From positions 330,970-394,969 of the forward strand of contig NZ_LMNX01000001.1 of assembly GCF_001423425.1 (NCBI RefSeq): a DNA stretch of 64,000 nt. Direction: 5' to 3'. The notes beneath the pieces were generated by a model, which saw nothing but the letters and a program-made list of their open reading frames with translations, did not search any database and was not told the DNA's origin. This document shows positions 33,793-64,000 of this stretch, piece by piece. A program made the position numbers and the translations under genes. Each line of letters begins with the position of its first letter. Positions within the stretch are counted from its first letter, which is position 1. This DNA comes from Rhizobium sp. Leaf306 (GTDB lineage: Bacteria > Pseudomonadota > Alphaproteobacteria > Rhizobiales > Rhizobiaceae).

Positions 33793-34422
33793 TCAGGCCG
33801 CCATCGCCGCATCGTCCCGCAGCGCTGCCGCGAACGCTTTCGCGTACCCCGCCACCTGCGCCGCCCGGTCATTGCCATTGATGATTTTTCGCGCTCCGAC
33901 CCAGTCCGATTTCCCAGGGCCGAAATAATCGCCGAGCTTGCGGCCGGTGAAACTGCCGGCCCGCATGCCCTCGATCAGGATTTTTACTGCCACATCCATC
34001 TCCATGGCGCGATGAGGTGCCGTGACCAGATCGATCCCTGTCAGCGCCGACATTTTCTGGTAGTTGCGCCTGTGGGTCAGTTGCACGAGCCCGCGCCCCA
34101 GCCAGGTGCGGCCATCGGCATCGTAACGCCAGTACGGCGTCTTCACCGTCCGCAGCCGGCCGGCGCTGTAAGCGCTTTCCAGCCGCACCACCGCAAGCTG
34201 ATCGGTCTTGGCCAGCGTTTCGCGCACCGGCTGCATCGTCGCTGCCGTCTCGTGAAACGCGGTCGCCAGCGCATAGGCAAGCGCCGCGGGGCCTTCGATG
34301 GGGTTGCGCGCCTCCCATGCCTCCAAAACAGCAGCCAACCCGGCCACCTGACCACTTGCCAACCGCCCGCTGAACGGGTTCCTGCGCACGTGATCGAAGA
34401 AAAAACTGCGCTCGTATCCCAT
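33793..34422 (-). CDS. GH19/lysozyme-like endolysin inside the GTA cluster
   Basis: A 209-residue enzyme of the lysozyme/class I chitinase type. It has a helical N-terminus, an HET motif (LATAFHETAATMQPV, catalytic Glu), the segment WRYDADGRTWLGRGLVQLTHRRNY, and GARKIINGNDRA. Such enzymes cut peptidoglycan to lyse the producing cell. RcGTA keeps its endolysin and holin genes elsewhere in the genome; here it is encoded between TerL and portal. It lacks a signal peptide, consistent with release through the holin. The intergenic region upstream holds an operator-like repeat and the divergent small gene. Confidence 0.87.
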   Translation of the reverse strand: MGYERSFFFDHVRRNPFSGRLASGQVAGLAAVLEAWEARNPIEGPAALAYALATAFHETAATMQPVRETLAKTDQLAVVRLESAYSAGRLRTVKTPYWRYDADGRTWLGRGLVQLTHRRNYQKMSALTGIDLVTAPHRAMEMDVAVKILIEGMRAGSFTGRKLGDYFGPGKSDWVGARKIINGNDRAAQVAGYAKAFAAALRDDAAMAA

Positions 34423-34460
34423 GTTAATCCTACCCCTTTACCGCGTTCGAAGGTTTCAAT

Positions 34461-34489
34461 CGGTTTAGAAAAAACTAAATCGTTTTAGT
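34461..34489. promoter_or_regulatory. Overlapping TTTAG inverted repeats in a divergent intergenic region
   Basis: CGGTTTAG-aaaaaa-CTAAATCG (7 of 8 pairs) and ACTAAA-tcgt-TTTAGT (perfect) overlap, giving three half-sites in 29 bp. The site is 39 bp upstream of the endolysin start on one side and 31 bp before the small plus-strand gene on the other. A regulator controlling lysis could bind here. Confidence 0.5.
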
Positions 34490-34519
34490 CTGTTAGTGAC
34501 GATTTACTTCGGAGTAAGG

Positions 34520-34720
34520 ATGTGGAACCAATCCAACCATGCGACGTTCATAGGGGCGCACCACCATGATGGTGCAGCGCACAATCCGGAGATCATGATG
34601 ATGCAGCAGACCGCCCAGACAGCCGCCACGAAATCGGTGCCGCAGCACGTCCTAGAGCGCATGGAATCCGAATGGAAGCAGATGCGCGACAGCGCTCCGG
34701 CTGTGCCGGCTAAAAGCTGA
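34520..34720 (+). CDS. Small protein of unknown function on the opposite strand of the GTA cluster
   Basis: A 66-residue protein with a His-rich N-terminal part (GAHHHDGAAH), a Met/Gln segment and a charged helix (HVLERMESEWKQMRD). The ATG at 34520 follows GGAG at good distance; a GTG at 34496 is also in frame. A rho-independent terminator 46 bp downstream makes it a complete transcription unit. I do not recognise the family. Confidence 0.55.
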   Translation: MWNQSNHATFIGAHHHDGAAHNPEIMMMQQTAQTAATKSVPQHVLERMESEWKQMRDSAPAVPAKS

Positions 34721-34765
34721 ATTGCAACTTTTGGCAGTAGCCAACTGTCAGATATAGAACGCTTG

Positions 34766-34789
34766 AGCGGCCCTGTCCGGGCCGCTTTT
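34766..34789 (+). terminator. Terminator of the small plus-strand gene
   Basis: AGCGGCC-ctgtc-CGGGCCGCT stem followed by TTTT, on the plus strand only; the minus strand lacks a T-run, so TerL messages could read through it. Confidence 0.8.
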
Positions 34790-34829
34790 CGTTGCGCGGT
34801 TCACCAGAAGCGCCACACCGGGCCTAGGC

Positions 34830-36221
34830 TCAAATCCCCCTGACGCGCGGCTCGCCCTGGCCGTCCAAAACAAGCGCCGTCAGCGCCCAGACCAGCGCAT
34901 CCAGCCGGTCCGGCGAGCGTCCCGATGACAGTCCGTTGGGACCGAAATCGCACATCTGGTCCTCCAGCTCCGCAAACCGTCCCGCATGCACCACCCGTCC
35001 CTGCTCGTAGAGGGCTGCGACCGGTTCTGCGCGGGCAAACTTTCCGCGGGATGCATGCACCACCGTCACCGGCAGGTTGGCGTCGATGCTTTTGAGCATC
35101 GCCGGCACCATGTCGCCGCCCTGGTTGCCCTCAGCCACGACCCGGTCGGCCGAAAACCGCGCATAGGCCTTCACCACGGCCTTGGCCCAGCCGCCCGGCG
35201 TATGGCCGGTCACCGAACAGTCGGCCAGCACCACCGCCCGGCCAGGCGAACCTTCGCTTGCCTCGACACCCGCCACGACAATGCCGCAGCAGGAGTTCTC
35301 GCCCGATCCCGAGGGCGGATCGACCGCCACCACGATGCGCCGCAAAACCCCAGTAAACCGCGTCACGCAGGCTTCGAGGTCGGCACGCTTCCACAGCGCA
35401 TCGTCGCGATCCTCGATCAACTCGCCGCCGAGTTCCTGGCGCCCGAGCCGCGTGCCGCCATAGCGTCGCTCCAGCGCCGCGATAAAGCCCGGCGCCAGAT
35501 TGCCGGCGTTACCGGCGGTGGAAATCTTGATCAGCCGCGTGCCAGGGTCGGCGATCAGCTGCTTCAGCACCGGCACCGGTCGCGGCGTCGTCGTCACCAG
35601 CTGGCGCGGATCGCGTCCCAGCCGCAGGCCAAACTGCAGCATGTCGAACGTTTCCTGCCCATGCTTCCATTTGCCGATCTCATCGCACCAGGCGTAGTGA
35701 AACTGCGGCCCGCGCAGCGCTTCCGGATCTTCGGAGGAAAAGATCTGCGCCACCGTGCCGTTCGGCCAGACCAGCCGTTTGCGTGAAATCTCGAATTCCG
35801 GCCAGTGCCGTGCCGCAATCCGGCAGATGCCGGAGACACCATCCACCATCACCTCGCGGGCATCGCCCAGCGTTTCCGCCACGAGCGCGATGCGAAGATC
35901 GGACCGCTCTCCAGCCGCACACGCCAGCGCATGCACCCATTCGGCGCCCGCCCGCGTCTTGCCGGATCCGCGCCCGCCCATGATCAGCCACGTCCGCCAG
36001 TCGCCCTCTGGCGGCCTCTGTCCGGGAAGCGCCGTAAACGCCCAATCCCGGTCGAGACCGGCCACAAACCCGTCAAACGCGTTCTCTCCCGGACCAGGCT
36101 CGTCACAGCTCTCCGCCGGCACCGAGTCCGGAGCGCGGGGCACGCCCATCGCACCGGCCAAAACCATTCCGGCCTCCAGATCCCGTGCACTCTTCTCCCT
36201 GACATCAGCGATGCCAGACAT
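34830..36221 (-). CDS. GTA g2-like large terminase (TerL)
   Basis: A 463-residue packaging motor. The ATPase domain has Walker A GGRGSGKTRAGAEW, Walker B HYAWCDEIGKW and TTTPRP coupling motif; the nuclease domain has VAVDPPSG and a later SPDRLDALVWAL. It packs DNA into the head; RcGTA-type terminases package host DNA by headful. The frame is open upstream to 36386, overlapping TerS by 131 bp. I chose ATG 36221, 34 bp after the TerS stop, but M14 or M34 of the longer frame are possible. Confidence 0.93.
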   Translation of the reverse strand: MSGIADVREKSARDLEAGMVLAGAMGVPRAPDSVPAESCDEPGPGENAFDGFVAGLDRDWAFTALPGQRPPEGDWRTWLIMGGRGSGKTRAGAEWVHALACAAGERSDLRIALVAETLGDAREVMVDGVSGICRIAARHWPEFEISRKRLVWPNGTVAQIFSSEDPEALRGPQFHYAWCDEIGKWKHGQETFDMLQFGLRLGRDPRQLVTTTPRPVPVLKQLIADPGTRLIKISTAGNAGNLAPGFIAALERRYGGTRLGRQELGGELIEDRDDALWKRADLEACVTRFTGVLRRIVVAVDPPSGSGENSCCGIVVAGVEASEGSPGRAVVLADCSVTGHTPGGWAKAVVKAYARFSADRVVAEGNQGGDMVPAMLKSIDANLPVTVVHASRGKFARAEPVAALYEQGRVVHAGRFAELEDQMCDFGPNGLSSGRSPDRLDALVWALTALVLDGQGEPRVRGI

Positions 36222-36255
36222 GCTCGCCCTGAATGACCCGGATGCGTTCACTGCC

Positions 36256-36894
36256 TCACCCGTGATCTTCTCTGCGGCCCGCCGCATCTTGCGCTGGCTG
36301 GGTTCCTCCGGCTGGAAGCCTTTGCGCCACCCATCCCGGTGGGCCATCGCGTTTCCAGGCTTCGAAATACCCAAAGGCTGTTTCATTGGCGCGATCCTCG
36401 ATCATCCGGACGAAGCGGGCCTTCGCCTCTTCGTATCCGCCGGCATCGGCCAGCCGGTCGGCCTCCACCTGCCGGTCGCGGGACAGCTGACGCTGCAGCG
36501 CATCGACCTTTTCCAGCGTGCGCATGATCAGGCTCATCGCATCGGTCGCCGCCTTCACATCGGCTCGCGCCAGTTTCTGCGCCGCCTCGTTGCCGTCAGC
36601 TGACACCGCGTCGTCGGCCTCGCTGGACAACAGCCCGGACGCCGCTTCCCGCATCTTGCGGAACGTGGCGAACTGCTGGCGCATCTCCGCCGTCATCTCG
36701 TTCAGAAGCTGCCGCAGTTCATCTGCGGGCTTCAGCTCGGTTTCCGCAGACTTGATCTCCAGCAGAACGTTTCGAACCGTCTCTTCCAGTTCGGCATCCT
36801 GCGTCACGTCGTCATCCGCGTCGTAAAGCGGTTCGTCCGTCCACAGGCCGAACAGGTCTGGATCAAGACCGGCGAGAGTATCGGAACGGTTCAT
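36256..36894 (-). CDS. GTA g1-like small terminase (TerS)
   Basis: A 212-residue, mostly helical, charged protein with long coiled-coil stretches (for example ELRQLLNEMTAEMRQQFATF) and a C-terminal segment FGYFEAWKRDGPPGWVAQ. In RcGTA the first gene, g1, was shown to encode the small terminase, which pairs with TerL. ATG 36894 has GGAGATCT upstream and starts after the leader. The name follows from position and helical make-up; sequence conservation of TerS is low. Confidence 0.7.
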   Translation of the reverse strand: MNRSDTLAGLDPDLFGLWTDEPLYDADDDVTQDAELEETVRNVLLEIKSAETELKPADELRQLLNEMTAEMRQQFATFRKMREAASGLLSSEADDAVSADGNEAAQKLARADVKAATDAMSLIMRTLEKVDALQRQLSRDRQVEADRLADAGGYEEAKARFVRMIEDRANETAFGYFEAWKRDGPPGWVAQRLPAGGTQPAQDAAGRREDHG

Positions 36895-36968
36895 GGCAGA
36901 TCTCCACAGCCGAAAACCCGCCGCGCCGGCTTGCCGTCGCACGTTCGGTTTCGATATCGATGTCCTGG

Positions 36969-37062
36969 AAAAAAAGAGGGCCCGGAGGTCAATCCGAGCC
37001 CTGACTGGAAGCCTTGCGGCGGTCGGGGCGTGAAGCCTCTCCCGACGCAACTCTTCGACTAT
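36969..37062 (-). ncRNA. Predicted small RNA or attenuated leader in front of the GTA cluster
   Basis: A sigma70-like promoter (37069-37097) and a rho-independent terminator frame about 95 nt on the minus strand. The predicted RNA has a first hairpin GTCGGG...CCCGAC (37022-37046) and an end hairpin AGGGC(T)CGGA...TCCG(G)GCCCT (36977-37002) followed by seven T. The terminator may also end selO transcripts. If readthrough is regulated, this would be the control point for the GTA message. I do not recognise an RNA family. Confidence 0.55.
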
Positions 37063-37068
37063 GCCTAA

Positions 37069-37097
37069 ACACTACCCGACAACCGTCACGCCGTCAA
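37069..37097 (-). promoter_or_regulatory. Sigma70-like promoter upstream of the GTA cluster
   Basis: On the minus strand TTGACG (-35), a 17-bp spacer and TAGTGT (-10). It lies 46 bp beyond the selO stop and points toward TerS. Confidence 0.6.
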
Positions 37098-37142
37098 GGA
37101 TTAAATTCCTATCTCGAAAATTTTACCAGAGCAGCTTCTCGC

Positions 37143-38603
37143 TCACGTCCCGCAGAAGGTGCGCGCAACCTTCTGTTCCGCCGTCGGCGCAATCGCGTAG
37201 TCGGCAAATTCCGGCCGCTCTTCGAACGGTTTTTCGAGCGCCTCCACCAGCTTTTCAAAGAAGCTGAAATCACCGTAATTGGCAGCCGCGATGGCTTCCT
37301 CGATCCGGTGGTTGCGGGCGATCAGCCACGGATTGACGCCGCGCATCTCTGTTGCCACGTCCGCCGGGCTGCGGCCTTCCTCGGCCAGGCGCTCGTTCCA
37401 TTTCGGCAACCATTCCCGCAGCTTGGCCGGATCCGCGAAACAGGCGAGCAGGTCGTCGTCGTGTCCTTCCGCGGCGTTGCAGAGCGCTCGGAACGTCCGC
37501 GTGAAATCCGCTTCGTTTTCCTCCATCGCAGAAAGCAGTCCCTGCACGAGATCGCCATCACCGTCGCGCGCGGTGACCAGACCGAGCTTTGCGCGGAACA
37601 CCTCGATCCAGTGCGCCTGGAACGTGTCGCCGAATGCCTTCAGGACAGAATTGGCGGCTCCCACCGCCTTTTCTTCGTCGGCATCGATCAGCGGCACCAG
37701 CGCCTCGGCAAGCCTTGCGATGTTCCACTGGCCGATGCCCGGCTGGTTGCGATAGGCGTAGCGTCCCTGCCGATCAATCGAGGAAAACACCTTCATCGGG
37801 TTGTATTCGTCGAGAAAGGCGCAAGGACCGAAATCGATCGTCTCGCCTGAAATCGTCATGTTGTCGGTGTTCATCACACCATGGATGAAACCGACGCCGA
37901 GCCAGCGGGCAATCAGCACCGCCTGCCGGTCCGCCACGGCCTGCAACAGCGCCAGATACGGGTTCTGCGCCCCCATCAGGTCAGGGTAATGCCGCTCGAT
38001 CACGTAGTTCGCCAGCGTCCGCACGCCCTCGGTATCGCCGCGGGCGGCAAAGAACTGGAACGTGCCCACTCGCACATGGCTTGCCGCGACCCGCACGAAC
38101 ACTGCGCCCTGCTGCTCCTGCTCGCGCTGAACGAGCTCACCGGTCGAAACCGCCGCCAGGGCCCGCGTCGCCGGTATGCCCAGCGCATGCATGGCCTCGG
38201 ACACGACATATTCGCGGATGACCGGCCCAAGCGCTGCCCGCCCGTCACCACGGCGCGAAAACGGCGTCGGCCCCGCGCCCTTCCACTGGATGTCGCGGCG
38301 CTGTCCGGCACGGTCCATGACCTCGCCGATCAGGATCGCCCGCCCATCGCCGAGCTGCGGTACAAAATTGCCGAACTGGTGCCCAGCATAGGCCATGGCG
38401 AGAGGCGATGCCCCCTGCGGCACGACATTGCCGGAAAGCACGGATGCCAGACGATCAGGATCCGAAAGATCCGCCTCGACGCCCAGTTCCGCTGCCAGCT
38501 TCTGGTTGAACCTCAGAAGCTTCGGCCCCTCCACCGGCTCCGGGTAGACGGAAGCGAAGAACCGATCCGGCAGGCGGGCATAGGAATTGTCGAACTGGAA
38601 CAC
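37143..38603 (-). CDS. selO: Protein adenylyltransferase SelO (YdiU family)
   Basis: A 486-residue pseudokinase-fold enzyme that AMPylates proteins in oxidative-stress responses. It shows PLAMAYAGHQFGNFVPQLGDG, GRGAKP-like replaced by WKGAGPTPFSRRGDGRA, NTDNMTISGETIDFGPCAFLD-type metal-binding Asn/Asp (in NTDN and DFGP), and a C-terminal cysteine in the FCGT end that corresponds to the redox-active Cys/Sec site. Start is GTG 38603, with AAGGAG upstream. It is not part of the GTA but is the next gene upstream on the same strand. Confidence 0.94.
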   Translation of the reverse strand: MFQFDNSYARLPDRFFASVYPEPVEGPKLLRFNQKLAAELGVEADLSDPDRLASVLSGNVVPQGASPLAMAYAGHQFGNFVPQLGDGRAILIGEVMDRAGQRRDIQWKGAGPTPFSRRGDGRAALGPVIREYVVSEAMHALGIPATRALAAVSTGELVQREQEQQGAVFVRVAASHVRVGTFQFFAARGDTEGVRTLANYVIERHYPDLMGAQNPYLALLQAVADRQAVLIARWLGVGFIHGVMNTDNMTISGETIDFGPCAFLDEYNPMKVFSSIDRQGRYAYRNQPGIGQWNIARLAEALVPLIDADEEKAVGAANSVLKAFGDTFQAHWIEVFRAKLGLVTARDGDGDLVQGLLSAMEENEADFTRTFRALCNAAEGHDDDLLACFADPAKLREWLPKWNERLAEEGRSPADVATEMRGVNPWLIARNHRIEEAIAAANYGDFSFFEKLVEALEKPFEERPEFADYAIAPTAEQKVARTFCGT

Positions 38604-38710
38604 GGGATCTCTCCTTCGGCCCTTTCAGGGGCTTGGTCTCGGGTATGTGCTTGAGTCTGGTCTGTGGCGTATCCCCAATATGGGGTCTCGCGCCTGCGGA
38701 ACAAGCAAGA

Positions 38711-40108
38711 TCAGCCCTTATTGCCCGCCTTCAACCGCACCCCGAACCCGAGCAGAAACGTCACCAGCGCCGCGGCTGCGGACGTCCCGTAAAGCCAGTA
38801 GGCGACCTGCCCGGGATCGCCTTGCGACAACTGCCGTGTCAGCCCGGTCGCTGCCGCGATCATGCCGGCAAGCGCCGATCCGACGGCGTAGCCGGCCGTC
38901 GACATGGTCGGCAAAAGCGCGCTAGCCCGGTCACGCTCCTCGTCGCCGGCGGCCTCCATCGAGGCCTGGTTGATCGCCGCCCACGACAGACCGAAACCGG
39001 TGCCGATCGCCATCTGGCTCAGGACCACGAGCAGGATCTCCCGGACGTCGATCGATATCGCGATCATCAGGAAGCCCGCGAGCTGGAACAGCGGCCCGGC
39101 CCGCATCGCAAAGTGTCGTCCCTTCAGAGACTTGATCCGGCTGGAGGCCATCGCGACCGCGCTCCAGGTCAGTGCCATCGCCACCACGATATAGCCGACC
39201 GCCGCCGGTCCGATGCCCCAGACGTCGCGGATGATCAGAGCGAGATAGGTGGCACCAGACGCATGGCCCGCCGACATCAGGAACAGCATCCAGAACCCGT
39301 GGCCAAGCACCGATCCCAGCCTGAAAGCGCCAGCCGGAAACAACCGCGGCCCGAGCTTTCCATCCGTCGTCACGGTCAGCGACAGCGCCAGTGATCCCAG
39401 CACCAGACAGGCGACCTGCCAGCCGATCACCCCCGTTGCGGACGACAGTGCGAAAATGAAGGACGCAGTCACGCAGAGCGCTACGGCCAGAGGCGCAAAC
39501 GCGGCCTTTGCCGCGCTGCCGGTCTCGGGCGTCGTCAACAGCGTGAAAAGACCAAGCAGGATGAGAAACGGCGTCACCGCCAGAAACGCGGCATGCCACG
39601 AAAACGCCTCTGCGAGCAGCCCCCCGATCAGCGGCCCGAGCAGAGCCGCGACCGCCCAGACGGTTGCCTCCACCGCAAATACCTTCGCCGTCACCGCGGA
39701 CGAGAAATTGGCCGGGATGAGGCTGTAGCAGATTGCCACGATCAGACCGTCGGCAATCCCCTGCAACAGTCTGCCCGCAACGATAAAGAAAAAGCTCGGT
39801 GCCAGAACCGCCATCAGACCGCCCAGCGAAAACAGCGCCATGGACCAGAACAGGCTGGATTTCACACCCAACCGATCGCGGAGATAGGCAGCACTGGTGC
39901 CGCCGGCGATCGAACCGATGAAATAGAGGCTGTAGACCCAGCTGAACCAGTCGCGCCCGCCAAGTTCGGCGGCGGCCAGCGGCATGGCGGCAACAATCGC
40001 GAACTGGTTGAAGGCATGCAACCCGATCCCGGCGGAAATCAGCCCCAGCATCAGGCCGTTCCGGCCGGACAAAAGCGTTTTCCATCCGGTGTCTGTTCTT
40101 GTCAGCAC
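38711..40108 (-). CDS. MFS drug/multidrug exporter-like transporter
   Basis: A 465-residue polytopic membrane protein of the MFS type with twelve or more helices. Motif-A-like YLRDRLGVKSSLFW follows helix 2, and the helix 4-5 region has GRLLQGIADGLIVAICYSLIP, which resembles drug:H+ antiporters of the DHA2 group. Substrate cannot be inferred. Next to it lie selO and, divergently, the beta-barrel protein gene. Confidence 0.88.
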   Translation of the reverse strand: MLTRTDTGWKTLLSGRNGLMLGLISAGIGLHAFNQFAIVAAMPLAAAELGGRDWFSWVYSLYFIGSIAGGTSAAYLRDRLGVKSSLFWSMALFSLGGLMAVLAPSFFFIVAGRLLQGIADGLIVAICYSLIPANFSSAVTAKVFAVEATVWAVAALLGPLIGGLLAEAFSWHAAFLAVTPFLILLGLFTLLTTPETGSAAKAAFAPLAVALCVTASFIFALSSATGVIGWQVACLVLGSLALSLTVTTDGKLGPRLFPAGAFRLGSVLGHGFWMLFLMSAGHASGATYLALIIRDVWGIGPAAVGYIVVAMALTWSAVAMASSRIKSLKGRHFAMRAGPLFQLAGFLMIAISIDVREILLVVLSQMAIGTGFGLSWAAINQASMEAAGDEERDRASALLPTMSTAGYAVGSALAGMIAAATGLTRQLSQGDPGQVAYWLYGTSAAAALVTFLLGFGVRLKAGNKG

Positions 40109-63284: not shown

Positions 63285-64000
63285 ATGCAGGACAAGGCAA
63301 ACCGTATCGCATACCTGGACGGATGGCGCGGCATCGCGATCCTGTTCGTGATCGCCGACCATTTCTCAGGCGGGCTTCTGCCCTTCGGTTCACTCGGCGT
63401 CGAACTCTTCTTCGTCTTGAGCGGACGGCTGATGGCCGATATTCTGCTCGTCCGCAAGACCGACATTCCGACCTTCTTCCAGCGTCGGTTCTCCCGCATC
63501 TATCCGGCGCTCCTGGTGTTTGCCACGGCGATGCTCGCCGTCTCCGTCGTCGGCGGGCTTGCTGGCGCGCCGCCGCATCTCCTGCTGGAGCCCTCCGCCT
63601 ATCTCGCGGCGATCACCTTCACCACGAACTATTACGAGGCCTGGACCCACACGTCGTCGGTGCTGGGGCATGTCTGGTCGCTGTCGGTCGAGGAACACAG
63701 TTATGTTCTGCTCGCCCTTCTCGTCGTCGTCGTCATCCGCAATGCGAGGGCTGCGGCTTTCGTCAGCCTGGCAATTGCCATCGCCGCAATGGCAAACGGT
63801 GCGATCCGCACCAGTCTTGCCGAACCGGGCGCCATGAGCGTGTACTGGCTGAGCGATGTGCGGATGGCCTCGATCTTTGCATCGGTGGCGCTGTTCGTGC
63901 TCATCGACAAGGTTCGCGTCCCGGCTGCAGCTCCCATTGTCGCCGCGATCCTGGGTCTGTCGCTGTGGATCCTGCCGGCGCCGGATATGGCCCGCTATAC
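63285..64000 (+). CDS. Acyltransferase 3 family membrane protein, cut by the window end
   Basis: The first 238 codons of an integral membrane O-acyltransferase (OafA/OatA type). Visible: YLDGWRGIAILFVIADHF, with the conserved Arg and His about ten residues apart, FGSLGVELFFVLSGRLMADI, RRFSRIYPALL, and WSLSVEEHSYVLLALL. Such enzymes O-acylate surface polysaccharides or other cell-surface molecules. It starts at ATG 63285 with CAGGAT upstream. No stop is reached inside the window. Confidence 0.9.
   Translation, partial: MQDKANRIAYLDGWRGIAILFVIADHFSGGLLPFGSLGVELFFVLSGRLMADILLVRKTDIPTFFQRRFSRIYPALLVFATAMLAVSVVGGLAGAPPHLLLEPSAYLAAITFTTNYYEAWTHTSSVLGHVWSLSVEEHSYVLLALLVVVVIRNARAAAFVSLAIAIAAMANGAIRTSLAEPGAMSVYWLSDVRMASIFASVALFVLIDKVRVPAAAPIVAAILGLSLWILPAPDMARY

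Follow-up and report, generated by a model that had tools for sequence, protein, structure and literature searches.

The 64,000-nt stretch of Rhizobium sp. Leaf306 DNA analyzed here (the window) contains a gene transfer agent (GTA) cluster whose first gene, terS-like, is separated from the upstream gene selO by a short segment carrying both a putative promoter and a strong terminator. The question is what this segment does: whether it makes a small RNA, insulates the cluster from selO, or decides whether the whole GTA is transcribed.

Promoter and Neighboring Genes

The first-pass annotation read TTGACG-N17-TAGTGT on the minus strand as a promoter, and this arrangement is indeed present at 37097-37069. 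A plain consensus promoter scan of 34000-40000 called no promoters, with 1.1 expected from chance; by consensus alone the promoter does not rise above chance, and it is conservation among relatives that lifts it to a candidate. Transcription is predicted to begin at 37062, a start set by lambda-like spacing. The elements and flanking genes, in window coordinates, are:

37143 to 38603, minus strand: selO, the upstream neighbor (Pfam SelO, 9e-116)
37101 to 37111, minus strand: TAGGAATTTAA box just 5' of the -35 element, a candidate UP-like or protein site; its TAGGAA is invariant in 57/57 loci
37092 to 37097, minus strand: -35 element TTGACG, identified by sequence and invariant in 57/57 BLAST-found loci
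37075 to 37091, minus strand: 17-nt spacer, conserved across relatives, with core CGTGACG at 37090-37084, a candidate GafZ site
37069 to 37074, minus strand: -10 element TAGTGT (TAGGGT in most relatives)
36256 to 36894, minus strand: terS-like gene, first of the cluster, assigned from its placement before terL, with relatives in 53/57 loci
34830 to 36386, minus strand: terL, large terminase (Pfam Terminase_6N, 3.1e-32; Terminase_6C, 3.2e-21)

The stop codon of selO lies 45 nt before the -35 element. The terS-like ORF begins with ATG at 36894, gives no match in a Pfam search, and is followed by terL and then by portal, capsid, and tail genes. Its frame is open on the minus strand back to a TTG in the leader (36256-37050), and automatic annotation may place the terS start too early, as happened for Caulobacter gtaT.

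Conservation and Association with GTA Clusters

A 141-nt query matched 58 of 100 genomes of relatives (the window's own among them), and the match covered the promoter in 57 of these, all belonging to the same family; in the 58th, G094, it was limited to query positions 115-140. Across the 57 loci the conserved block begins with TAGGAA before the -35 element, takes in most of the spacer, and continues over the first ~17 transcribed nt, after which conservation drops. The terS relatives lie downstream of the promoter with or without selO upstream. The first-pass annotation had staked its reading on conservation in relatives, which proves to be strong and independent of an adjacent selO.

Matches to the promoter pattern numbered at least 119 in bacterial genomes and 20 in viral contigs. 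Among the 139 matches listed, tblastn identified GTA genes (terminase or portal) in 111 of the 112 whose downstream sequence exceeds 2 kb, the single informative miss among them being an Oscillospiraceae MAG, and in 20 of the 27 with shorter downstream sequence. Genera among the listed matches include Rhizobium, Neorhizobium, Agrobacterium, Shinella, Martelella, Mesorhizobium, Brucella/Ochrobactrum, Aurantimonas, and Hoeflea. Because nearly every informative match listed precedes GTA genes, the element is identified from sequence as the main promoter of the RcGTA-type GTA cluster; it lies directly before terS and terL and recurs there in relatives. The 20 viral contigs (L182-L201, from IMG/VR) carry the promoter together with GTA terminase or portal genes and probably represent GTA clusters of chromosomal origin that have been listed as viral. 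Two loci from the same genus, L022 (G047) and L023 (G027), keep the promoter, with terS not found and only partial matches to TerL; these are decaying clusters.

The comparisons of promoter and leader used 159 distinct full-length sequences out of 195, a chance match (L174) having been removed beforehand. The sequences are related and the counts are therefore not independent. The search pattern itself partly set positions 1-28 and left the early transcribed region free.

Spacer Palindrome and Early Transcribed Region

Two features were recognized in the first transcribed bases:

37058 to 37063, minus strand: -10-like hexamer CATAGT at -1 to +5, a candidate sigma-dependent pause signal
37046 to 37056, minus strand: pause consensus, with G-10 at 37056 and T-3, G-2, C-1, and G+1 at 37049-37046

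The spacer core follows the pattern CGTNACG across relatives. A perfect 13-bp palindrome, CACCGTNACGGTG, occurs in 34 of the 118 typed family matches; typing covered 118 of the 128 element places in 118 genomes, the other ten being second or off-cluster places picked by eye. In the window spacer the inner 7 bp alone are palindromic, the palindrome being reduced to this length in the window's own clade.

Downstream of the -10 element, 158 of the 159 distinct sequences have both A+1 and T+5, with more variation at the bases between them. The -10-like hexamer was found in all 159 sequences versus 7.2% of shuffles, and the pause consensus, which predicts an RNA 3' end at 37047 (+16), stands within one base of its expected place in 118/159 (16.8% in shuffles). 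The combination of the hexamer with G-10Y-1G+1, allowing one base of play, occurs in 118/159 sequences versus 1.2% of shuffles, and with T-3G-2 included the figures are 116/159 and 0.07%.

Strong conservation suits any DNA-binding site, and the spacer and early region could be ordinary activator sites for GafY, GafZ, or IHF at a promoter that works by recruitment and has no functional pause, the terminator mainly blocking read-through from selO or other neighbors. Caulobacter PgtaT also needs GafY and IHF (PMC11150451). The -35 element here is near consensus, however, unlike the AATCAT of Caulobacter, and conservation in the early hexamer falls on the two bases read by sigma, with freedom between them. 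The distribution of the terminator, to which we turn next, bears on this explanation as well.

Leader Terminator and Predicted Leader RNA

Downstream of the early region the leader comprises:

37008 to 37056, minus strand: hairpin 1 of the predicted leader RNA, confined to the closest clade, from folding and arm pairing
37003 to 37011, minus strand: CTTCCAGTC box, whose CTTC closes hairpin 1, invariant in 21 aligned clade leaders
36969 to 37002, minus strand: intrinsic terminator, a 10-bp stem (37002-36977) followed by C and seven T (36975-36969)
36895 to 36968, minus strand: remainder of the terS leader, identified by sequence, with GGAG at 36905-36902 before the start codon

A strong hairpin with seven T, and another hairpin between promoter and terminator, had been claimed in the first pass, and both are present. 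The terminator tops the list of terminator-like sites in 34000-40000 (eight found, 5.0 expected from shuffles), and the region 37065-36965 folds at -43.1 kcal/mol (z -2.73), with 1 of 200 shuffles equally good. From the sequence between promoter and terminator, the default product is predicted to be a discrete leader RNA of ~94 nt, in line with the ~95 nt proposed at the outset and a possible source of orphan sRNA entries in transcriptome studies.

Of 159 leaders, 79 have a canonical terminator within 200 nt after the early region; the corresponding counts are 102 of 795 in shuffles (12.8%), 4 of 159 on reverse strands, and 2 of 124 in stretches lying further downstream. In leaders of diverged elements (described below) the count is 11/30 versus 6.7% of shuffles and one reverse strand. 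The terminator is nonetheless the least conserved part in sequence comparisons, and the 80 of 159 leaders that have no canonical terminator would need a later or other stop.

Insulation of the cluster from selO had also been suggested, and this may be a side role. Where selO lies directly upstream on the same strand, the leader terminator is present in 14/14 distinct loci, which are close relatives, a pattern that favors insulation and, with it, the activator-site explanation. The terminator is however also present in 65 of the 145 loci without such a selO, and its position downstream of the promoter means that it would stop transcription of the cluster too. Taken with the properties of the -35 element and early hexamer, this makes activator sites without a functional pause an unlikely account of the locus.

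Hairpin 1, in the closest clade, links the early region with the CTTCCAGTC box. Its cognate arms pair at -15.4 kcal/mol versus -13.7 kcal/mol when swapped; arm-swap permutations gave 3/20000 on 26 leaders and 51/20000 on the 11 distinct 5' arms, values uncorrected for relatedness. The swap test used 26 of the 30 clade leaders (all except L012, L013, L030, and L053) and the alignment 21 of the 30. Arm pairing thus provides moderate support for an RNA structure in this clade. No Rfam covariance model matched the window at its gathering score, and three weak matches to the stretch reached 16-17 bits against cut-offs of at least 50.

A leader acting mainly in trans as a small RNA with targets elsewhere, GTA control being secondary, would account for the discrete promoter-hairpin-terminator unit, the covariation of hairpin 1 in one clade, and the invariant CTTCCAGTC box. 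It sits poorly with an RNA body that differs between clades and lacks a canonical terminator in about half of leaders, whereas the promoter and the first ~17 nt are fixed, and with an element that has no Rfam match and is always tied to a GTA cluster. We regard a mainly trans-acting role as distinctly improbable.

The GAAGAG/GAAGAA close to the 5' end of the RNA has a second possible partner, the interrupted U tract (CTCTTT/TTCTTT), in place of the CTTC box; folding predicts this pairing for L002 and L004, and in the window (37056-37051 with 36978-36970) it was spotted by eye. Together with the presence of a hairpin and terminator in a 5' leader, the L002 and L004 folds recall a classical attenuator, in which a ligand, protein, or ribosome toggles terminator and antiterminator folds. 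The two hairpins of the window are not mutually exclusive in its single minimum-energy fold, however, leader sequence and length vary widely, and neither an ATG-started leader ORF nor an antiterminator fold was seen among the ORFs and single minimum-energy folds. The TTG frame running from 37050 into terS cannot be general either, because the spacing to terS differs among leaders by amounts not divisible by three. We give such toggling barely any credence.

Several leaders (L136, L148, L161, L176, and others) contain a similar GC-rich inverted repeat (CCCCCTCTGTCCTGCCGGACATCTCCCC...) 100-170 nt past the promoter and ahead of terS; it resembles a dispersed repeat. The L042 leader has a (CATCGG)n hexanucleotide run between promoter and terS.

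Linkage to gafZ

The window's genome contains one gafZ (DUF6456, 1.1e-44), 376 bp past the right end of the window and adjoining gafY (Bac_DnaA_C, 3.3e-11; DnaA-type helix-turn-helix), so that homologues of both genes expected for a GafYZ-controlled promoter are present. Starting within 400 bp past position 64000, gafZ, gafY, and a ROS/MUCR regulator stand side by side (L202, 777-2821, minus strand), and the MucR neighbor might be a silencer of gafYZ.

Among 199 family genomes, TerL was found in 156, the element (with up to two mismatches) in 118, and DUF6456 in 165. The element accompanies both TerL and GafZ in 115 genomes, TerL only in one, and GafZ only in two, and it never occurs alone. 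In 102 of the 118 genomes it is on the same strand as TerL and no more than 3 kb upstream; of the other 16, nine have no TerL place listed and in seven, one of them G212 with a probably chance match, TerL is on another contig or further off.

TerL without the element was found in 40 of the 199 genomes, 36 of them with GafZ. We examined 34 of these 36 (all but G100 and G223) and found a diverged but recognizable element in 30 of the 34 clusters (18/20 and 12/14), two of the four misses having less than 0.8 kb of readable sequence. Recognition was by matrix score and by eye, the first 18 then serving to train the matrix used for later sets. The CGTNACG core is present in 19 of the 30 diverged versions (manual count), including L208 and L221, which are GafZ positive and keep CGTGACG. 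Three of the versions (L208, L218, and L221) have no TTGAC -35 and keep the -10 element and early region.

None of the four GafZ-less TerL-positive clusters examined, from a total of five (all but G235), has an intact element. One shows no trace of it, and the other three (L247, L248, and L249), which share one genus label, are relics in which the AT box, the TTGAC -35, and A+1 and T+5 persist, indicating that the -10-like element itself did not decay. These relics have lost the palindrome and the G-10 and G+1 of the pause consensus, and their -10 reads TATAAA or TACATA instead of TAGNNT. In two of the three the -10 is nearer the sigma70 consensus, giving the impression of a promoter that has turned into a plain one. 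Decay of the palindrome and pause consensus in the absence of gafZ would be a new observation; since the three relics represent one genus, the loss has been seen only once or twice. Lineages without gafZ constitute a natural experiment on the function of these elements.

Beyond the Family

In 20 upstream regions from the wider class, the element was recognizable in three (L226 and L228 from the same order and L225 from another) and weak in L231 and L244, and the remaining 15 had no recognizable element. The published Caulobacter palindrome and -10, used as a pattern against 385 class genomes, gave one match, which we attribute to chance; it lies in an apparent cytochrome c maturation locus (judged by reading frames) with no GTA genes.

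BaGTA of Bartonella is of different phage origin. By the title of the study, anti-termination operates in this GTA from the same order (Korotaev et al., cited in PMC13236601). A wider hypothesis is that sigma-dependent promoter-proximal pausing is ancestral in alphaproteobacterial GTA control, that GafZ, together with the corresponding part of GafA, represents another, unrelated Q-like anti-terminator loading on paused polymerase at the terS promoter, and that the rhizobial terminated leader is additionally a structured small RNA. We offer this tentatively, as a doubtful but possible extension.

Proposed Mechanism

Cells that produce GTAs finally lyse, and the off state of the GTA must consequently be tight. 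We assign a probability of roughly two in three (0.68) to the reading that the main RcGTA-type promoter is built as a GafZ loading site, with transcription stopping in the leader by default and GafZ carrying polymerase through. RNA polymerase would begin at ~37062, and sigma rebinding to the -10-like hexamer at -1 to +5 would cause it to pause near +16. Without GafZ the polymerase would escape and stop at the leader terminator, yielding the ~94-nt RNA and little terS message. When gafYZ are expressed, GafZ would bind the spacer element and join the paused polymerase, which could then pass the leader terminator and later terminators and switch on the whole cluster.

The first-pass annotation had raised regulated read-through governing the whole GTA as one of its options, and this remains the best reading. 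The RNA-switch attenuator that it also named is less likely than processive anti-termination loaded at the promoter, by GafZ in a Q/AlpA-like manner. The window contains the features that define Q- and AlpA-type loading sites: a conserved element between -35 and -10, a -10-like element (by sequence match) in the first transcribed bases, and a terminator between promoter and first gene. A promoter common to many rhizobial genera may thus have a complete loading-site anatomy, in which A+1, T+5, the palindrome, and the terminator are singled out.

Comparison with Known Systems

The PgtaT promoter of Caulobacter crescentus, described with GafY, GafZ, IHF, and terGTA (Tran and Le 2024, PMC11150451), is likewise a main GTA promoter before the first gene, with an element between -35 and -10 and GafYZ in the genome. 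Caulobacter GafZ is an anti-terminator that needs a palindrome between -35 and -10 (PMC11150451); the PgtaT cluster is expressed by anti-termination, and we propose the same for the window promoter. The Caulobacter terminator, in contrast, consists of three 150-bp repeats after gtaT, whereas in the window a plain hairpin within the leader serves as terminator. The Caulobacter -35 is degenerate (AATCAT), unlike the near-consensus TTGACG of the window, and PgtaT depends on GafY and IHF. The sections of PMC11150451 consulted contain no pause element, whereas we propose an early pause site for the window. Anti-termination beyond Caulobacter is raised there only as a possibility, for GafA of R. capsulatus (PMC11150451).

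In the lambda sequence used for comparison (J02459) the -10-like element is at +1 to +6, while that of the window is at -1 to +5. With the pR' start where we take it to be, lambda has C at +16, G at +17, and G at +7, as in the window. The lambda leader terminator lies further on, at about +194. The pR'-Q-tR' regions of lambda and 21 otherwise share with the window a -35, a 17-nt spacer, and a -10, as well as a -10-like element in the first transcribed bases and a terminated leader before the late genes (PMC6606751, PMC4604602). Q and GafZ are said to be unrelated (PMC11150451).

The AlpA promoter PalpB of Pseudomonas aeruginosa (PMC9371919) also has a binding element between -35 and -10, an intrinsic terminator downstream, and a -10-like element at -1 to +5, the same position as in the window, with A+1 and T+5 needed. 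AlpA is however a different protein, with a short element (GGGACG), and controls lysis genes (PMC9371919). In the literature drawn on for GTAs, for GafA, GafY, and GafZ, and for rhizobial sRNAs, neither a pause element nor a leader terminator was seen described for a GTA promoter of rhizobia. The terminator inside the leader ahead of terS and the proposed sigma-dependent pause would be new in this setting. The mechanism itself would be of a known kind, with a layout that corresponds to the Q and AlpA systems.
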